Positions 27,985-62,151 of a stretch of DNA of 64,000 nucleotides are shown one piece after another. Within the stretch, counting starts at the first letter, position 1. Each line of letters opens with the position of its first letter. Origin of the DNA: Oscillospiraceae bacterium (GTDB lineage Bacteria > Bacillota > Clostridia > Oscillospirales > Ruminococcaceae). The stretch covers positions 1 to 64,000 of the forward strand of contig JAFYSU010000014.1 of assembly GCA_017559185.1 (NCBI GenBank), given 5' to 3'. Position numbers and translations under genes: made by a program. The notes under the pieces are model-generated. The model had not been told where the DNA came from, searched no databases, and saw nothing but the letters and a program-made list of their open reading frames with translations.

Positions 27985-28051
27985 ATTACAGAGAGATTGT
28001 ACAAGACAATCCCACAGTGGTAGTCACTGCTTATTTTGCCGTCCTTCCAGT

Positions 28052-28287
28052 GGCTTCTCCTTGAGGAGAAGCAGTCGCTGAAAGCGACTGATGAGGTGTT
28101 TTGGCACAGACTTATTGCCTTATCTAAGCCAAGTTATACGATGAAATTCCGTACAACACCTCATCCGCTTCACTGTTGTTCAGCACCTTATTGCGACTCG
28201 CTAACGCTCGCATGCATTAGCTCTGTCAGCCAATCACACTTCGCCCTGCTCGTGTTCTTGGGACATCGCGTCCCTCAAGGAGAAGGC
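28052..28287. repeat. Interspersed palindromic repeat A, interrupted
   Basis: Left end GGCTTCTCCTTGAGGAGAAG (28052-28071) forms a hairpin and is followed by GTCGCTGAAAGCGAC and TGATGAGG. The right part has CACCTCATCCGCTTCAC and ends CTCAAGGAGAAGGC. The plan matches repeat E at 29740-29894, but an extra 82-base module (28192-28273) lies in its right half. No coding capacity. Confidence 0.75.
28192..28273. repeat. About 82-base repeated module, copy 1
   Basis: Reads TGCGACTCGCTAACGCTCGC, then CATGCATTAGCTCTGTCAGC, then CAATCACACTTCGC and a GTGTTCTTGGGACATCGCGT end. Near-identical copies occur at 28471-28551 and 32585-32664. Confidence 0.8.
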
Positions 28288-28320
28288 TATGCGGTGTGGT
28301 AAAATCAGCACTAACTACCG

Positions 28321-28470
28321 TCGAGGGAACGCCGTCGACACGGCGCGGGGAGGACAAGCGGTGAATGGCACTGATTGGGCAGGAAGCCCCGACGGGTATG
28401 CCGCTTTAAGCGGCACAGACGGCTTCAGGGCCTAAAACTTGGAATGGGCAGCTCTGAAGCCGTCTGCCAG
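28321..28470 (+). mobile_element. Possible remnant of an IS605/TnpB-type right end
   Basis: A frame reading T-V-E-G-T-P-S-T-R-R-G-E-D-K-R and a stop is followed by GGGCAGGAAGCCCCGAC and a perfect hairpin TGCCGCTT-T-AAGCGGCA (28399-28415), then a 13-bp stem CAGACGGCTTCAG / CTGAAGCCGTCTG (28416-28428, 28454-28466). From memory this resembles the 3' end of tnpB genes and their guide-RNA scaffold. There is no transposase gene, so at best it is a decayed fragment. Confidence 0.3.
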
Positions 28471-28551
28471 TACGACTCGCTTTGCTCGCTTGCATTAGCT
28501 CTGTCAGCCAATCACACTTCGCTATCACTCGTGTTCTTGGGTCATCACGTC
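28471..28551. repeat. About 82-base repeated module, copy 2
   Basis: TACGACTCGCTTTGCTCGC, then TTGCATTAGCTCTGTCAGCC, ending GTGTTCTTGGGTCATCACGT. Adjacent to the possible IS605-type remnant. Confidence 0.8.
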
Positions 28552-28617
28552 AGGGCAACTTGATAAAGCGTACAGCACAGCGTCCGAGCTTTAGTGGCGG
28601 CGGCAAATGCATTTTTG

Positions 28618-28703: not shown

Positions 28704-28772
28704 CATGAAGTTTTATTGGTTATCTTGGCTTGGATAGAACAGTAAAGCTCTGCTGTTGCCCCTCATCAGTCA
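28704..28772. repeat. 69-base repeated segment, copy 1
   Basis: Aligns without gaps to 32498-32566 with about eight to nine mismatches. It ends in CCCCTCATCAGTCA, the left edge of palindromic element C. Confidence 0.75.
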
Positions 28773-28895
28773 AACCTTGCGGTTTGCCAGCTTCCCCCGA
28801 GGGGGAAGCCACTGGCGGTGCGGTAAATTTGCCATTTTGCCAAAGCCTTCCCCTTGTGGGGGGAAGGTGTGCGGCGAAGCCGCTCGGATGAGGGG
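28759..28895. repeat. Interspersed palindromic repeat C (137 bp)
   Basis: Bounded by perfect 9-bp inverted ends CCCCTCATC / GATGAGGGG. Inside are hairpins AAACC-TTGC-GGTTT, GCTTCCCC-CGA-GGGGGAAGC and, in the right half, CCTTCCCC-TTGTG-GGGGAAGG and GCGGC-GAA-GCCGC. It lacks coding capacity, so it resembles a MITE or REP-type unit. Confidence 0.75.
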
Positions 28896-28931
28896 AAACC
28901 CCAAAAACCTGCCTTTTCAATAAAAAACATC

Positions 28932-28973
28932 AAAATCCGTGGAGTTTTTAAAAACTCCACGGATTTTTTTGTG
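28932..28973. terminator. Strong AT-flanked hairpin
   Basis: A perfect 18-bp stem (28932-28949 with 28950-28967) with TTTTTTT after it. It would terminate transcription entering from either side; no gene ends nearby. Confidence 0.7.
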
Positions 28974-28975
28974 TA

Positions 28976-29335
28976 TTTGTCTTATTTGAGACAGAAATAT
29001 AGCGATATTTCCTATAATTTTTGTGCCATTTGGGACAAATGCGTTAAAAAGTCCCTGCCGACTTTTAATTTGTTTGTCTTATTTGAGACGGTTTTTGCGT
29101 CGAAATTTCTGCGTTTTTGTATCGTTTGGTACAAAAAACGCTGTATTTCTTGAATTTTTGTACTAAATGAGACAGACGAGCAAAAAAGTGTACTTTTTGC
29201 TCGTCTACTTTATTAATCGGTCAGGGGCTTTTTTTCTAAAGTACCCCTAAAAAACTTTGTCAAACAACACAAATGGTGGATGCAAATCGCTTGTGTTTAT
29301 TGGTGCAAATGTCACAAATTCTCAAATGAGACAAA
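28976..29335 (+). repeat. Cluster of six degenerate 20-bp dyads upstream of csrA
   Basis: Consensus TTTGTCTCA-tt-TGAGACAAA. Copies start at 28976, 29020, 29073, 29116, 29157 and 29316; the first five are 41-53 bases apart. Four are followed or surrounded by further inverted repeats (28994-29011, 29044-29068, 29174-29206, 29333-29366), and copy 4 sits in the middle of a larger hairpin GCGTTTTTGT / ACAAAAAACGC. The cluster ends just before csrA. It may be a multi-site operator; no protein is predicted in it. Confidence 0.6.
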
Positions 29336-29371
29336 CGCGTTAAAAAGTACACTTTTTAACGCGTTTTTAAA
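29333..29371 (+). terminator. Terminator-like hairpin just before csrA
   Basis: A perfect 16-bp stem (29333-29348 with 29351-29366) and 2-base loop followed by TTAA within GTTTTTAA. It ends about 15 bases before the csrA ribosome site, so it could attenuate csrA transcription. Confidence 0.55.
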
Positions 29372-29392
29372 TCTGATAGGAGGTCAGTAAAA

Positions 29393-29644
29393 ATGTTGGT
29401 GCTTGGAAGGAACCTTGGCGACACCATTGTTATTAACGACAACATTGTAATTACCGTTTTTGAAAGCAATAAAACGGGGGACAAATTCAAAATCGCAATT
29501 GATGCCCCAAAGGAAGTAAAAATCCAGCGTGGCGAACTTTGCGACAAGGCAGCCGAATACGCCGCAAAGGTGGAAAGGCTCAAACAGGTGGAAATTAAAC
29601 GCCAAAACAAACAGGCAAGAAAATTTTCTGCCGAAACCTATTAA
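29393..29644 (+). CDS. csrA: Carbon storage regulator CsrA
   Basis: An 83-residue RNA-binding repressor, slightly longer than the usual 61-75. It reads 'MLVLGRNLGDTIVINDNI' and 'FKIAIDAPKEVKIQRGELC', the conserved beta-strands with the Arg at the binding edge; the C-terminal 35 residues are a charged helix. In Firmicutes CsrA blocks flagellin translation by binding GGA motifs over the ribosome site and is antagonised by FliW. The flagellin gene is next downstream and its leader has such motifs; no fliW lies in the window. GGAGG precedes the ATG. Confidence 0.93.
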   Translation: MLVLGRNLGDTIVINDNIVITVFESNKTGDKFKIAIDAPKEVKIQRGELCDKAAEYAAKVERLKQVEIKRQNKQARKFSAETY

Positions 29645-29739: not shown

Positions 29740-29894
29740 GGCTTCTCCTTGAGGAGAAGCTGTCGCTGAAAGCGACTGATGAGGCGGTATAGCAAAGGAT
29801 TTATTGCAATATCAAAGTTAAAACAGAACAACAATTTTGTTTAACACCTCATCCGCTTCGCTAACGCTCGGCACCTTCTCCTCAAGGAGAAGGC
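29740..29894. repeat. Interspersed palindromic repeat E (155 bp, complete)
   Basis: Terminal inverted repeats GGCTTCTCCTTGAGGAGAAG and CTTCTCCTCAAGGAGAAGGC; each end is itself a hairpin. Inside come GTCGCTGAAAGCGAC and TGATGAGG on the left, CCTCATCCGCTTCGCTAACG on the right, and an AT-rich centre of about 75 bases. It lies in the 426-base gap between csrA and flagellin. It has no ORF. Confidence 0.8.
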
Positions 29895-29972
29895 ATATAA
29901 GCCTAAACGGTAGCTTTCGTTCCTTATACAAGGAAAGTCCTTTACGGTAATACCTAATACTGAAATGGGAGT

Positions 29973-29990: not shown

Positions 29991-30049
29991 AAATTAACAG
30001 CCACGAACCCCCAATGAAATCAGATTATAGGACGCTGTTTTCGGGGAAT

Positions 30050-30073
30050 GGCTGCAAGGAGGAAAAAATTATG
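30050..30073 (+). promoter_or_regulatory. Flagellin ribosome site with CsrA-type GGA motifs
   Basis: Leader reads CGGGGAATGGCTGCAAGGAG, GAAAAAATT, ATG. The AAGGAGG ribosome site carries GGA and a second GGA lies 16 bases before it. Paired GGA motifs over a ribosome site are the known arrangement for CsrA control of hag in Bacillus. Binding here is inference. Confidence 0.5.
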
Positions 30074-32320
30074 GCAGGTAGTGTAGTAAGAACTAATATC
30101 ATGGCGATGAACGCAAACCGTTCCCTTGGTATCAACAATGGTCTCGTTTCCAAATCCTTGGAAAAACTGTCTTCCGGTTTCAGAATCAACCGCGCTGGTG
30201 ACGATGCTTCCGGTCTGGCAATTTCCGAAAAAATGAAAGCTCAGATTAAAGGTCTGGAAACAGCTTCCGCAAACTCCCAGGACGGTATCTCCCTTATTCA
30301 GACTGCAGAAGGCGCTCTGACAGAAGTTCACAACATGCTCAACCGTATGGTTGAACTGGCTACAAAATCCGCAAACGGCACACTTCAGAACGAAGTTGAC
30401 CGTGAAGCTCTTCAGGCAGAAGTTGACTCCCTGCTCGAAGAAATTGACCGTATCGGTAATTCCACAAACTTCAACGGCATCAACCTGCTGGACGGCAGCC
30501 TTGCTACCGAAACAGTTGCTGACACTGCAGTTGTTGAAGGCGCAGGCAAACAGGTTATGATTAACAGCTCCACAGAAGATATTACTTATGTATTGAACGA
30601 CGGTGTTAAAGACACATTTAAGACAGCTACTGCAGTTGGTGCTGTAACTAATGGTGCAACAGACCTTACTGTTACTGTTAACTACACCGATGCAGACGGT
30701 AACGCTAAATCTATGGATGTTAAGGTTGCAATTGGTGCGGCAACTGCTGCTGCTGCTACTGGTACAGCTATTGTTGCTGGCTTGAATGCTAACGAAGATT
30801 TCTCCAAACTTTTCACAGCTGCAGATACTGCTGCTGGTGCTGATGGTAAAATCAATATTACATCCAATGTAGTTGGTGCAAACGGTCCTAAGGTTACAAG
30901 CTTCTCCATTGCATCTTCCGTTCCTGCAAACTATACTGCTTCGACACACGCTAAGGATACTACTAACTCTGTTGCTGGTGCTGACCCATCCGCTACAGTT
31001 ACTTTTGCTGCTAATCCAGAAAAAGAAGACACCATCACAATTGGTGACAAAACTTACGAATTTGTTGCAAAAGCAGGCGACGCTGTTAAAGGCGAAGGCA
31101 ACATTGCTGTTGTTCTTGGTGCTGACGAAGATGCAACCGCTGCAAATCTTGTTGCTGCAATGAAAGAAAACGGTGTTTCCAGTGCGACAGCTGATGCAGC
31201 CAATAATGCAATTAAAATTGCTGACCTTTCCGAAATTTCCGTTGCTCAGAACAGCGTTCAGATTACCGAAATGGACGAAGCATTCCTTGTTGATGCACAG
31301 GCTGCAACAAAAGGCGAATACACCATGTCAATCGGTGCAGGTACAGCTAGCGAAAAACACACCTTCACACTGAAATACATGGACAAAGAAGGTACACAGA
31401 AAGAGCTGAAAGTGGAATATGATTCCAATGCCACTGCTGCAACAAACCGCAATAACATTATCAGCGAGCTGAAGAAAAACACAGAGCTTTCTGAACTGTT
31501 CGACATTGAAGCATCTGCAACAGGTTCCGATATCGTATTCAAAGCTAAAGACGCAGGCAGCGAAGCAGGCAGAGTTCTTGCAGGTGCTTCCACTGATGAC
31601 GAAGCTAACGGCACAACAACTGTTTCCGCATTGGCAACAAAAGAACCTAAAGATGCAGGCAAAGTATTGTCCCTCGACTATGCTGCTCTGGAAGAAGGCG
31701 ACACCCTTACCGTTAACGGTAAAACCTACGAATTCGTTCAGAACGCAAACACAGCTGCTAAAGAAGGCAACATTGCTATCGTTAAAGGTGCTGATGAAGA
31801 AGAAACAATGAAAGCTCTTGCTTCCGCACTGCGCAACGACGGCGTTGAAATGACCTTCGACAACGGCACAAACACCATTACATTCATGGACGATGCTGTT
31901 ATTCCTGAAGAAAAAGAAGTTGGCGGTCTCCAGCTCCAGATTGGTGATACTTCCGACAGCTTCAATGTAATGACTGTTAACGTAGACGACCTGCGTTCCG
32001 AAGCTCTTGGTCTGTCCGGTCTGGACATCTCCAACGCTGACAACGCAAGTGCTGCAATCAACACAATTAAAGACGCTATCAACAAAGTATCCACAAACCG
32101 TGCAAACATGGGTGCTCTGCAGAACCGTCTGGAATACACCATCAACAACTTGGATGTAGCTTCTGAAAACATGAACGCTGCAAACAGCCGTATCCGTGAT
32201 ACAGACATGGCTAAAGAAATGATGAACTACACCAAGATGAACGTTCTGACTCAGGCAGCTCAGGCTATGCTTGCTCAGGCTAACCAGCAGCCACAGTCCG
32301 TTCTCCAGCTGCTCGGCTAA
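30071..32320 (+). CDS. Flagellin, large, with duplicated variable domain
   Basis: About 749 residues, far longer than the usual 270-500. The filament core is conserved: N-terminal D0/D1 ('[12 protein letters not shown]', '[20 protein letters not shown]', '[14 protein letters not shown]') and C-terminal D1/D0 ending '[11 protein letters not shown]'. The middle (about 180-620) has two unit types in tandem: a B unit at about 180-290 and 413-516, and an A unit at about 308-393 and 528-620 ('[13 protein letters not shown]' versus '[13 protein letters not shown]'). So the variable region arose by one B-A duplication. True start is the ATG at 30071. Expected to be secreted by the flagellar export system. 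Confidence 0.96.
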
Positions 32321-61879: not shown

Positions 61880-62035
61880 AATGAATATCACTCCGAAAAT
61901 AAGCATATTTTGTAAAGTATTGCATAAAACATAAAAATAATCCAGACATTAAAGTTTTAAACATAAAAATCAAGAACAATTGACATATGTATATTTGCGC
62001 AGTATACTGTAGCAAAAGCGGATTGCTCCGCAAAT

Positions 62036-62133
62036 ATACGCAGGGGAGCTGGGTGAACCCGGCTGAGATTGACTGTGATACACAGGCTGAACCCTTATAC
62101 CTGAACTGGATAATGCCAGCGTAGGAAAGCGAG
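62036..62133 (+). ncRNA. TPP (thi-box) riboswitch
   Basis: Core segments of the thiamine pyrophosphate aptamer are all present in order: CAGGGGAGC, GGCTGAGA, ACCCTTATACCTGAACTGG and ATAATGCCAGCGTAGGAAAG. Bound TPP should favour the terminator that follows, turning off thiT. Confidence 0.97.
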
Positions 62134-62151
62134 TAAAACAGGATTTTAGTG

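Follow-up and report, generated by a model that had tools for sequence, protein, structure and literature searches.

The closest known analog of the switch described here is the Hin/hix-fljBA system of flagellar phase variation in Salmonella, in which one flagellin gene and a gene whose product represses the alternative flagellin post-transcriptionally are both expressed from an invertible promoter. The staphylococcal Sin protein, another small serine recombinase, acts together with HU to resolve resH sites arranged as direct repeats. CsrA, a known flagellin repressor, acts on flagellin mRNA in Bacillus, and flagellin is a major antigen of motile gut Clostridia. CsrA acts on flagellin mRNA in Campylobacter as well (PMC4894983). 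In C. difficile, the recombinase RecV inverts the flagellar (flg) switch that is located upstream of the early flgB operon (PMC5386303, PMC7446863), and in the invertons of gut bacteria a promoter between inverted repeats is flipped by a recombinase, with phase-variable surface structures among the results (PMC11868660; PMC8748976).

The 64,000-nucleotide stretch of an Oscillospiraceae genome analyzed here (hereafter, the window) contains a csrA gene followed by a flagellin gene, and the interval 28976-29335 upstream of csrA was correctly read in the original prediction as the non-coding control region of this pair. We consider it very likely that the region is an invertible-promoter phase switch (inverton) for the csrA-flagellin pair because the site pairs are conserved, their central dinucleotides are inverted, the segments of paralogous loci are found in both orientations, and a recombinase is linked to such loci and co-occurs with them. 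For the species from which the window comes, we infer inversion, promoter activity, the ON/OFF state, co-transcription of flagellin, any protein binding and the role of the repeats discussed below.

Putative crossover sites and promoter upstream of csrA

The csrA gene of the window (29393..29644, plus strand) is a stand-alone gene encoding a protein of 83 aa that matches the Pfam CsrA family (PF02599) with 61.8 bits, above the cut-off, and scores below the NCBIfam CsrA equivalog cut-off; it is a divergent paralog. The gene is preceded by the ribosome-binding site AGGAGG (29378..29383, plus strand), and followed by a flagellin gene (30071..32320, plus strand) whose product contains the Flagellin_N and Flagellin_C domains. 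There is no fliW gene beside the window csrA; an ordinary flgL-fliW-csrA cluster with the fliW-linked paralog is located on another contig of the genome (G000:C37). By analogy with the characterized CsrA proteins, the paralog in the window would be expected to repress flagellin, whose leader contains GGA motifs (30030-30063). The flagellin gene of the window is the only full-strength flagellin match in this 86%-complete assembly, so that the simplest outcome of a switch would be ON/OFF flagellation together with the CsrA paralog. REP/MITE-like repeats (CTTCTCCTTGAGGAGAAG and GATGAGG-type) are scattered around the locus (28040-28560, 28770-28900 and 29740-29900), one of them between csrA and flagellin. 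The sole Rfam match in the window is a TPP riboswitch (62032-62145), which is distant from the locus.

Two 26-bp palindromes with the core AAAAAGT[GT/AC]ACTTTTT bracket a 159-bp segment that contains no gene. Site 1 (29178..29203, plus strand) has the core AAAAAGTGTACTTTTT with the central dinucleotide GT, and site 2 (29337..29362, minus strand) has the core AAAAAGTACACTTTTT with the central dinucleotide AC; thus, the two sites share the same central 2-bp overlap in inverted orientation. Both belong to longer, perfect or near-perfect palindromes that were overlooked in the original prediction, namely, an extended hairpin at 29174-29206, inside the interval that it delineated, and another one at 29333-29366, which starts in the last bases of that interval. 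This locus accounts for the only two occurrences of the exact 16-bp core in the 1.58-Mb assembly. The predicted invertible segment extends between the crossover centres (29191..29349; no strand is assigned to this segment, to the hairpin described next or to the repeats discussed below). The uvrA-side boundary of the region is formed by a bidirectional terminator-like hairpin with a 16-bp stem and tails on both strands (28932..28967), and many relatives also have hairpins resembling intrinsic terminators to the left of site 1.

A scan with the SigD consensus (PMC3865298) identified a putative sigma28/SigD-like promoter within the segment (29214..29240, minus strand; TTTAGAAAA-N11-CCGATTA) that points away from csrA. 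Taken alone, this match is modest, with a shuffle p of about 0.15. Identical, identically spaced boxes (TTTAGAAAAGAAAAGTTATGCCGATTA) precede a csrA-less flagellin gene at G232:C43, and similar boxes, likewise reading away from csrA, are found in four cassettes of relatives (L066, L070, L072 and L073). In several other relatives, a sigmaA-like promoter is present inside the segment instead (TTGCAA-N17-TAATAT in L095), which indicates that the promoter type varies. No standard sigma70 promoter for csrA was detected between 28500 and 29390 in the assembled orientation. After inversion of the segment, the end of the -10 box would be 67 bp upstream of the start codon of csrA. Given that the promoter faces the terminator at 28932-28967, away from csrA, the assembled state is probably OFF; the segment orientation in this species is known from one assembly only, with both orientations seen among paralogs in the genomes G232 and G162.

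In the mechanism that we propose, a serine recombinase encoded on another contig (C14, see below) would attach to the two sites and flip the segment by way of cleavage at the central GT/AC dinucleotide. With the switch OFF, the sigma28-type promoter would read away from csrA towards the terminator, which would stop the outward transcript. After inversion to the ON state, transcription would start about 60 bp before csrA and proceed into csrA and flagellin. The repeats that flank site 1 would most likely serve the switch as an array to which an accessory or regulatory protein binds.

Distribution of the site pair and the recombinase

A profile constructed from the window csrA and those of two relatives was used to find stand-alone csrA genes in other genera. 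These genes, of which a single genome can have as many as six, often have a flagellin gene directly downstream, and paired palindromes with the core AAAARGTATACYTTTT are located upstream. Within the family, 17 cassettes from 11 genomes contribute 34 sites, whose alignment yields the 26-bp consensus TTACAAAAARGTATACYTTTTTGTAA, and the centre-to-centre distance between the sites across the 17 cassettes is 99-168 bp. All five tabulated csrA cassettes with an asymmetric central dinucleotide have the pair inverted, as AC…GT in L071 and as GT…AC in L065, L066, L102 and the window.

Comparison of paralogs within the same genome shows that homologous segments occur in both orientations. G232 encompasses six csrA-flagellin cassettes (L067 and L093-L097); among the five that retain both sites, the promoter points away from csrA in four and towards it in one. 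The segment of L095 matches those of its four paralogs only when flipped (72-78 versus 10-12), and the flanks are collinear. The same is observed in G162, where L069 matches L098 only when flipped (75 versus 10). In-silico inversion at the site centres increases the identity between L095 and L097 from 75.5 to 84.8% and that between L069 and L098 from 74.8 to 96.2%, and lowers the identity in a same-orientation control pair.

A clear site pair is absent in two related csrA loci, L034 and L062. The former (L034:4001-4416) comes from a Clostridiales MAG that encodes the closest CsrA (59%) and shows the same csrA-flagellin order, with no recognisable site pair; the other csrA loci recovered in the contig search are too distant to be compared. 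Four loci of G144 (L063, L090, L091 and L092) contain a CTATAG core in place of GTATAC, and these sites are perhaps a diverged class recognized by a recombinase of different specificity.

A serine recombinase gene adjoins seven cassettes in seven genera, with one of the copies cut off by a contig end. The genome of the window encodes a Sin/Hin-like small serine recombinase (Resolvase, PF00239) on another contig, unlinked to the window locus (G000:C14:13579-14205, minus strand, corresponding to L107:5580-6206), as a solo gene between a chemotaxis-receptor gene and mraZ. This C14 recombinase shares 57-62% identity with the six complete cassette-linked recombinases; the other two serine recombinases of the same genome are only 26-29% identical to it. 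Recombinases of this kind and stand-alone csrA co-occur, with 15 of 16 genomes versus 74 of 381 (Fisher p 9e-10), where the 16 genomes were classed by inspection of their loci, lower-scoring csrA matches, not singly inspected, were assigned to the group without stand-alone csrA, and the single genome counted as recombinase-less carries the copy that is cut off by the contig end. The solved structure nearest to the C14 protein is Sin (PDB 2r0q, E 2e-27, catalytic domain), and its structural relatives include Sin, DNA-invertase and gamma-delta. The C14 recombinase is the probable trans-acting invertase of the window switch.

Recombinase-linked switches are found elsewhere as well, and the asymmetric central dinucleotides are inverted in 11 of 11. 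In each of these (L114, L115, L117, L120, L121, L123, L126, L130, L135, L136 and L137), the recombinase gene directly precedes a GT...AC inverted site pair, and the genes beyond it vary, including those for zinc-ribbon proteins, secreted proteins and a condensation-domain-like protein. Such self-linked promoter switches appear to form a wider class in other genera.

The repeat array and alternative explanations

The original prediction centered on six repeats, and these are indeed located at the positions that it gave: 28976..28995 (TTTGTCTTATTTGAGACAGA), 29020..29039 (TTTGTGCCATTTGGGACAAA); 29073..29092; 29116..29135, inside a longer 31-bp dyad (GCGTTTTTGTATCGTTTGGTACAAAAAACGC); 29157..29176, with its centre exactly 24 bp to the left of the site 1 centre; and 29316..29335, inside the invertible segment and with its centre exactly 24 bp to the left of the site 2 centre. 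Thus, five copies of the TTTGTCTCA-type array are located outside the segment, next to site 1, and the sixth is within it. The steps between successive copies are 44, 53, 43, 41 and 159 bp, or 4.2, 5.0, 4.1, 3.9 and 15.1 helical turns. The repeats are specific to this locus: in a leave-one-out profile scan of the 64 kb on both strands, each left-out copy (11.7-24.4 bits) scored above all other positions, copy 6 narrowly so (11.7 versus 11.5 bits for the best match elsewhere). The first 260 bp of the region, to the left of site 1, contain 18 pairs of similar 20-mers, compared to at most one in shuffles, and two matches to the 20-mer with up to 3 mismatches were found where 0.03 are expected per window. 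Across the whole genome, at the same threshold, the pattern clusters only here, with 4 matches in the cluster; there are also 4 scattered singles, near the level of the reversed control pattern (about 2). The claim that the repeats are dyads holds for copies 1, 2 and 4, which are good palindromes; copies 3, 5 and 6 are rather degenerate repeats, with 7, 8, 5, 7, 5 and 5 self-complementary positions out of 10 in copies 1 to 6, respectively.

The array is a real, lineage-specific side array. Across 198 family genomes, the 20-mer (up to 2 mismatches) is no more frequent than expected by chance, with matches in 5 genomes versus 6 for the reversed control pattern, and a repeat array of comparable density is present in none of the 19 other stand-alone csrA loci examined. 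The TTTGTCTCA dyad was rejected as a family-wide operator given its chance-level occurrence in the 198 genomes. Accordingly, the original prediction of a conserved multi-site operator is not supported by the comparison with relatives, in which the array upstream of csrA, the very feature whose lack of conservation was named there as refuting it, is absent. A search for similar DNA among plasmids yielded no matches. Several features suggest that the array is linked to the switch historically and possibly functionally. In addition to the 24-bp offsets of copies 5 and 6, a possible decayed recombination site follows copy 2 (29046..29066; AAAAAGTCCCTGCCGACTTTT), with an offset of 26 bases from that copy, the same as the offset of the AAAAAGT of site 2 from copy 6. 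Inversion would place copy 6 at 48 bp from copy 5, such that the steps of the array in the ON state would be 44, 53, 43, 41 and 48 bp. A single TTTGTCTCATTTGAAACAAC is found elsewhere in the genome (L024:4171-4190, G000:C52), beside a hairpin of the form AAAAAGT...ACTTTTT and some 220 bp upstream of an ApbE-like gene; this unit resembles the repeat-plus-site unit of the window and may be due to chance.

The array may be a protein-binding platform, accessory or regulatory, for the switch, possibly functioning either as an accessory site for synapsis or as a platform for a regulator upstream of the ON promoter. The more specific possibility that the repeats act in the invertase reaction as accessory sites which steer synapsis or the direction of switching, comparable to the Fis enhancer for Hin or site II for Sin, can be entertained only tentatively. 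The offset shared by copies 5 and 6 relative to the crossover sites, the fit of the flipped copy 6 into an array with 41-53-bp steps, and the use of an accessory site by Sin (2r0q), the nearest solved relative, are all compatible with this role. However, the repeat sequence is unlike the crossover half-site, and the cassettes of other genera lack the array and still show both orientations of the segment, so that the array is no general requirement. The reading under which a dimeric or oligomeric regulator binds the six repeats as a multi-site operator, repressing or activating csrA-flagellin independently of inversion, accounts for the presence of six locus-specific repeats far above the shuffled expectation and for steps close to whole helical turns; nevertheless, we regard it as unlikely because the motif has no family-wide use, the array occurs at no other cassette, three copies are weak in dyad symmetry, and the conserved elements lie elsewhere.

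The two remaining explanations concern the palindromes themselves. The predicted folding of the region is very stable on both strands (z about -12), and the arms of the crossover palindromes vary yet remain complementary, as could be expected of a structured RNA leader or a non-coding RNA in which the dyads form hairpins, such as a CsrB-like sponge, an attenuator or a riboswitch. Equal stability of the two strands is, however, expected from DNA palindromes, and the segment flips in paralogs, which makes an RNA function quite improbable. In particular, a CsrA sponge RNA was rejected because the repeats contain hardly any GGA motifs to which CsrA could bind, and a known RNA element was rejected because the Rfam search gave no match at the locus. 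The presence of two palindromes with identical cores at 99-168 bp from each other upstream of a gene would also suit the operators of a DNA-looping repressor rather than recombination sites. The inverted central dinucleotides, the flipped segments of paralogs and the linkage to serine recombinases leave this reading hardly any probability, and it was rejected.

Relationship to known phase switches

We found no description of a csrA-flagellin class of invertible promoters in the openly licensed literature, which yielded the C. difficile switch, Hin and general reviews; an earlier description elsewhere is possible. Dispersed invertible promoters in front of csrA-flagellin pairs, as many as six of them in one genome, would account for the variable flagellation of motile gut Clostridia, and the inverton reading entails an exact prediction with respect to the site, the overlap and the recombinase. 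One might further speculate, although we consider this rather doubtful, that the csrA-flagellin cassettes are the Clostridial counterparts of fljBA, such that a flip would activate a single flagellin along with its own RNA-binding repressor, which silences the other flagellin mRNAs, resulting in antigenic alternation in multi-cassette genomes (six cassettes in G232), with the array of the window lineage biasing the direction of switching.

Among the described systems, the flg switch of C. difficile is also a case of clostridial flagellar phase variation via DNA inversion upstream of flagellar genes, but it depends on RecV and controls the early flgB operon, whereas the window combines a serine recombinase with a promoter segment in front of csrA-flagellin. 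The invertons of gut bacteria share the layout with a promoter between inverted repeats; the sources that describe them mention neither a csrA-flagellin target nor the AAAAGTGTACTTTT site class. Sin acts on directly repeated resH sites with HU, in contrast to the simple sites in inverted orientation in the window. The Hin/fljBA system has in common with the window a serine recombinase, palindromic sites of about 26 bp in inverted orientation, and an invertible promoter in front of an operon in which flagellin is paired with an RNA-level flagellin regulator. That regulator is FljA in Salmonella and an unrelated CsrA paralog in the window, so the csrA-flagellin switch would parallel fljBA while being built from unrelated parts. 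In Salmonella, the hin gene lies inside the invertible segment along with a Fis-bound enhancer, whereas the segment of the window is much shorter (159 bp) and contains no gene, the probable recombinase is encoded outside the segment and unlinked to it, and the switch presumably operates without Fis. With one flagellin in the assembly, ON/OFF switching is likelier for the window than an alternation of the Hin/fljBA type.
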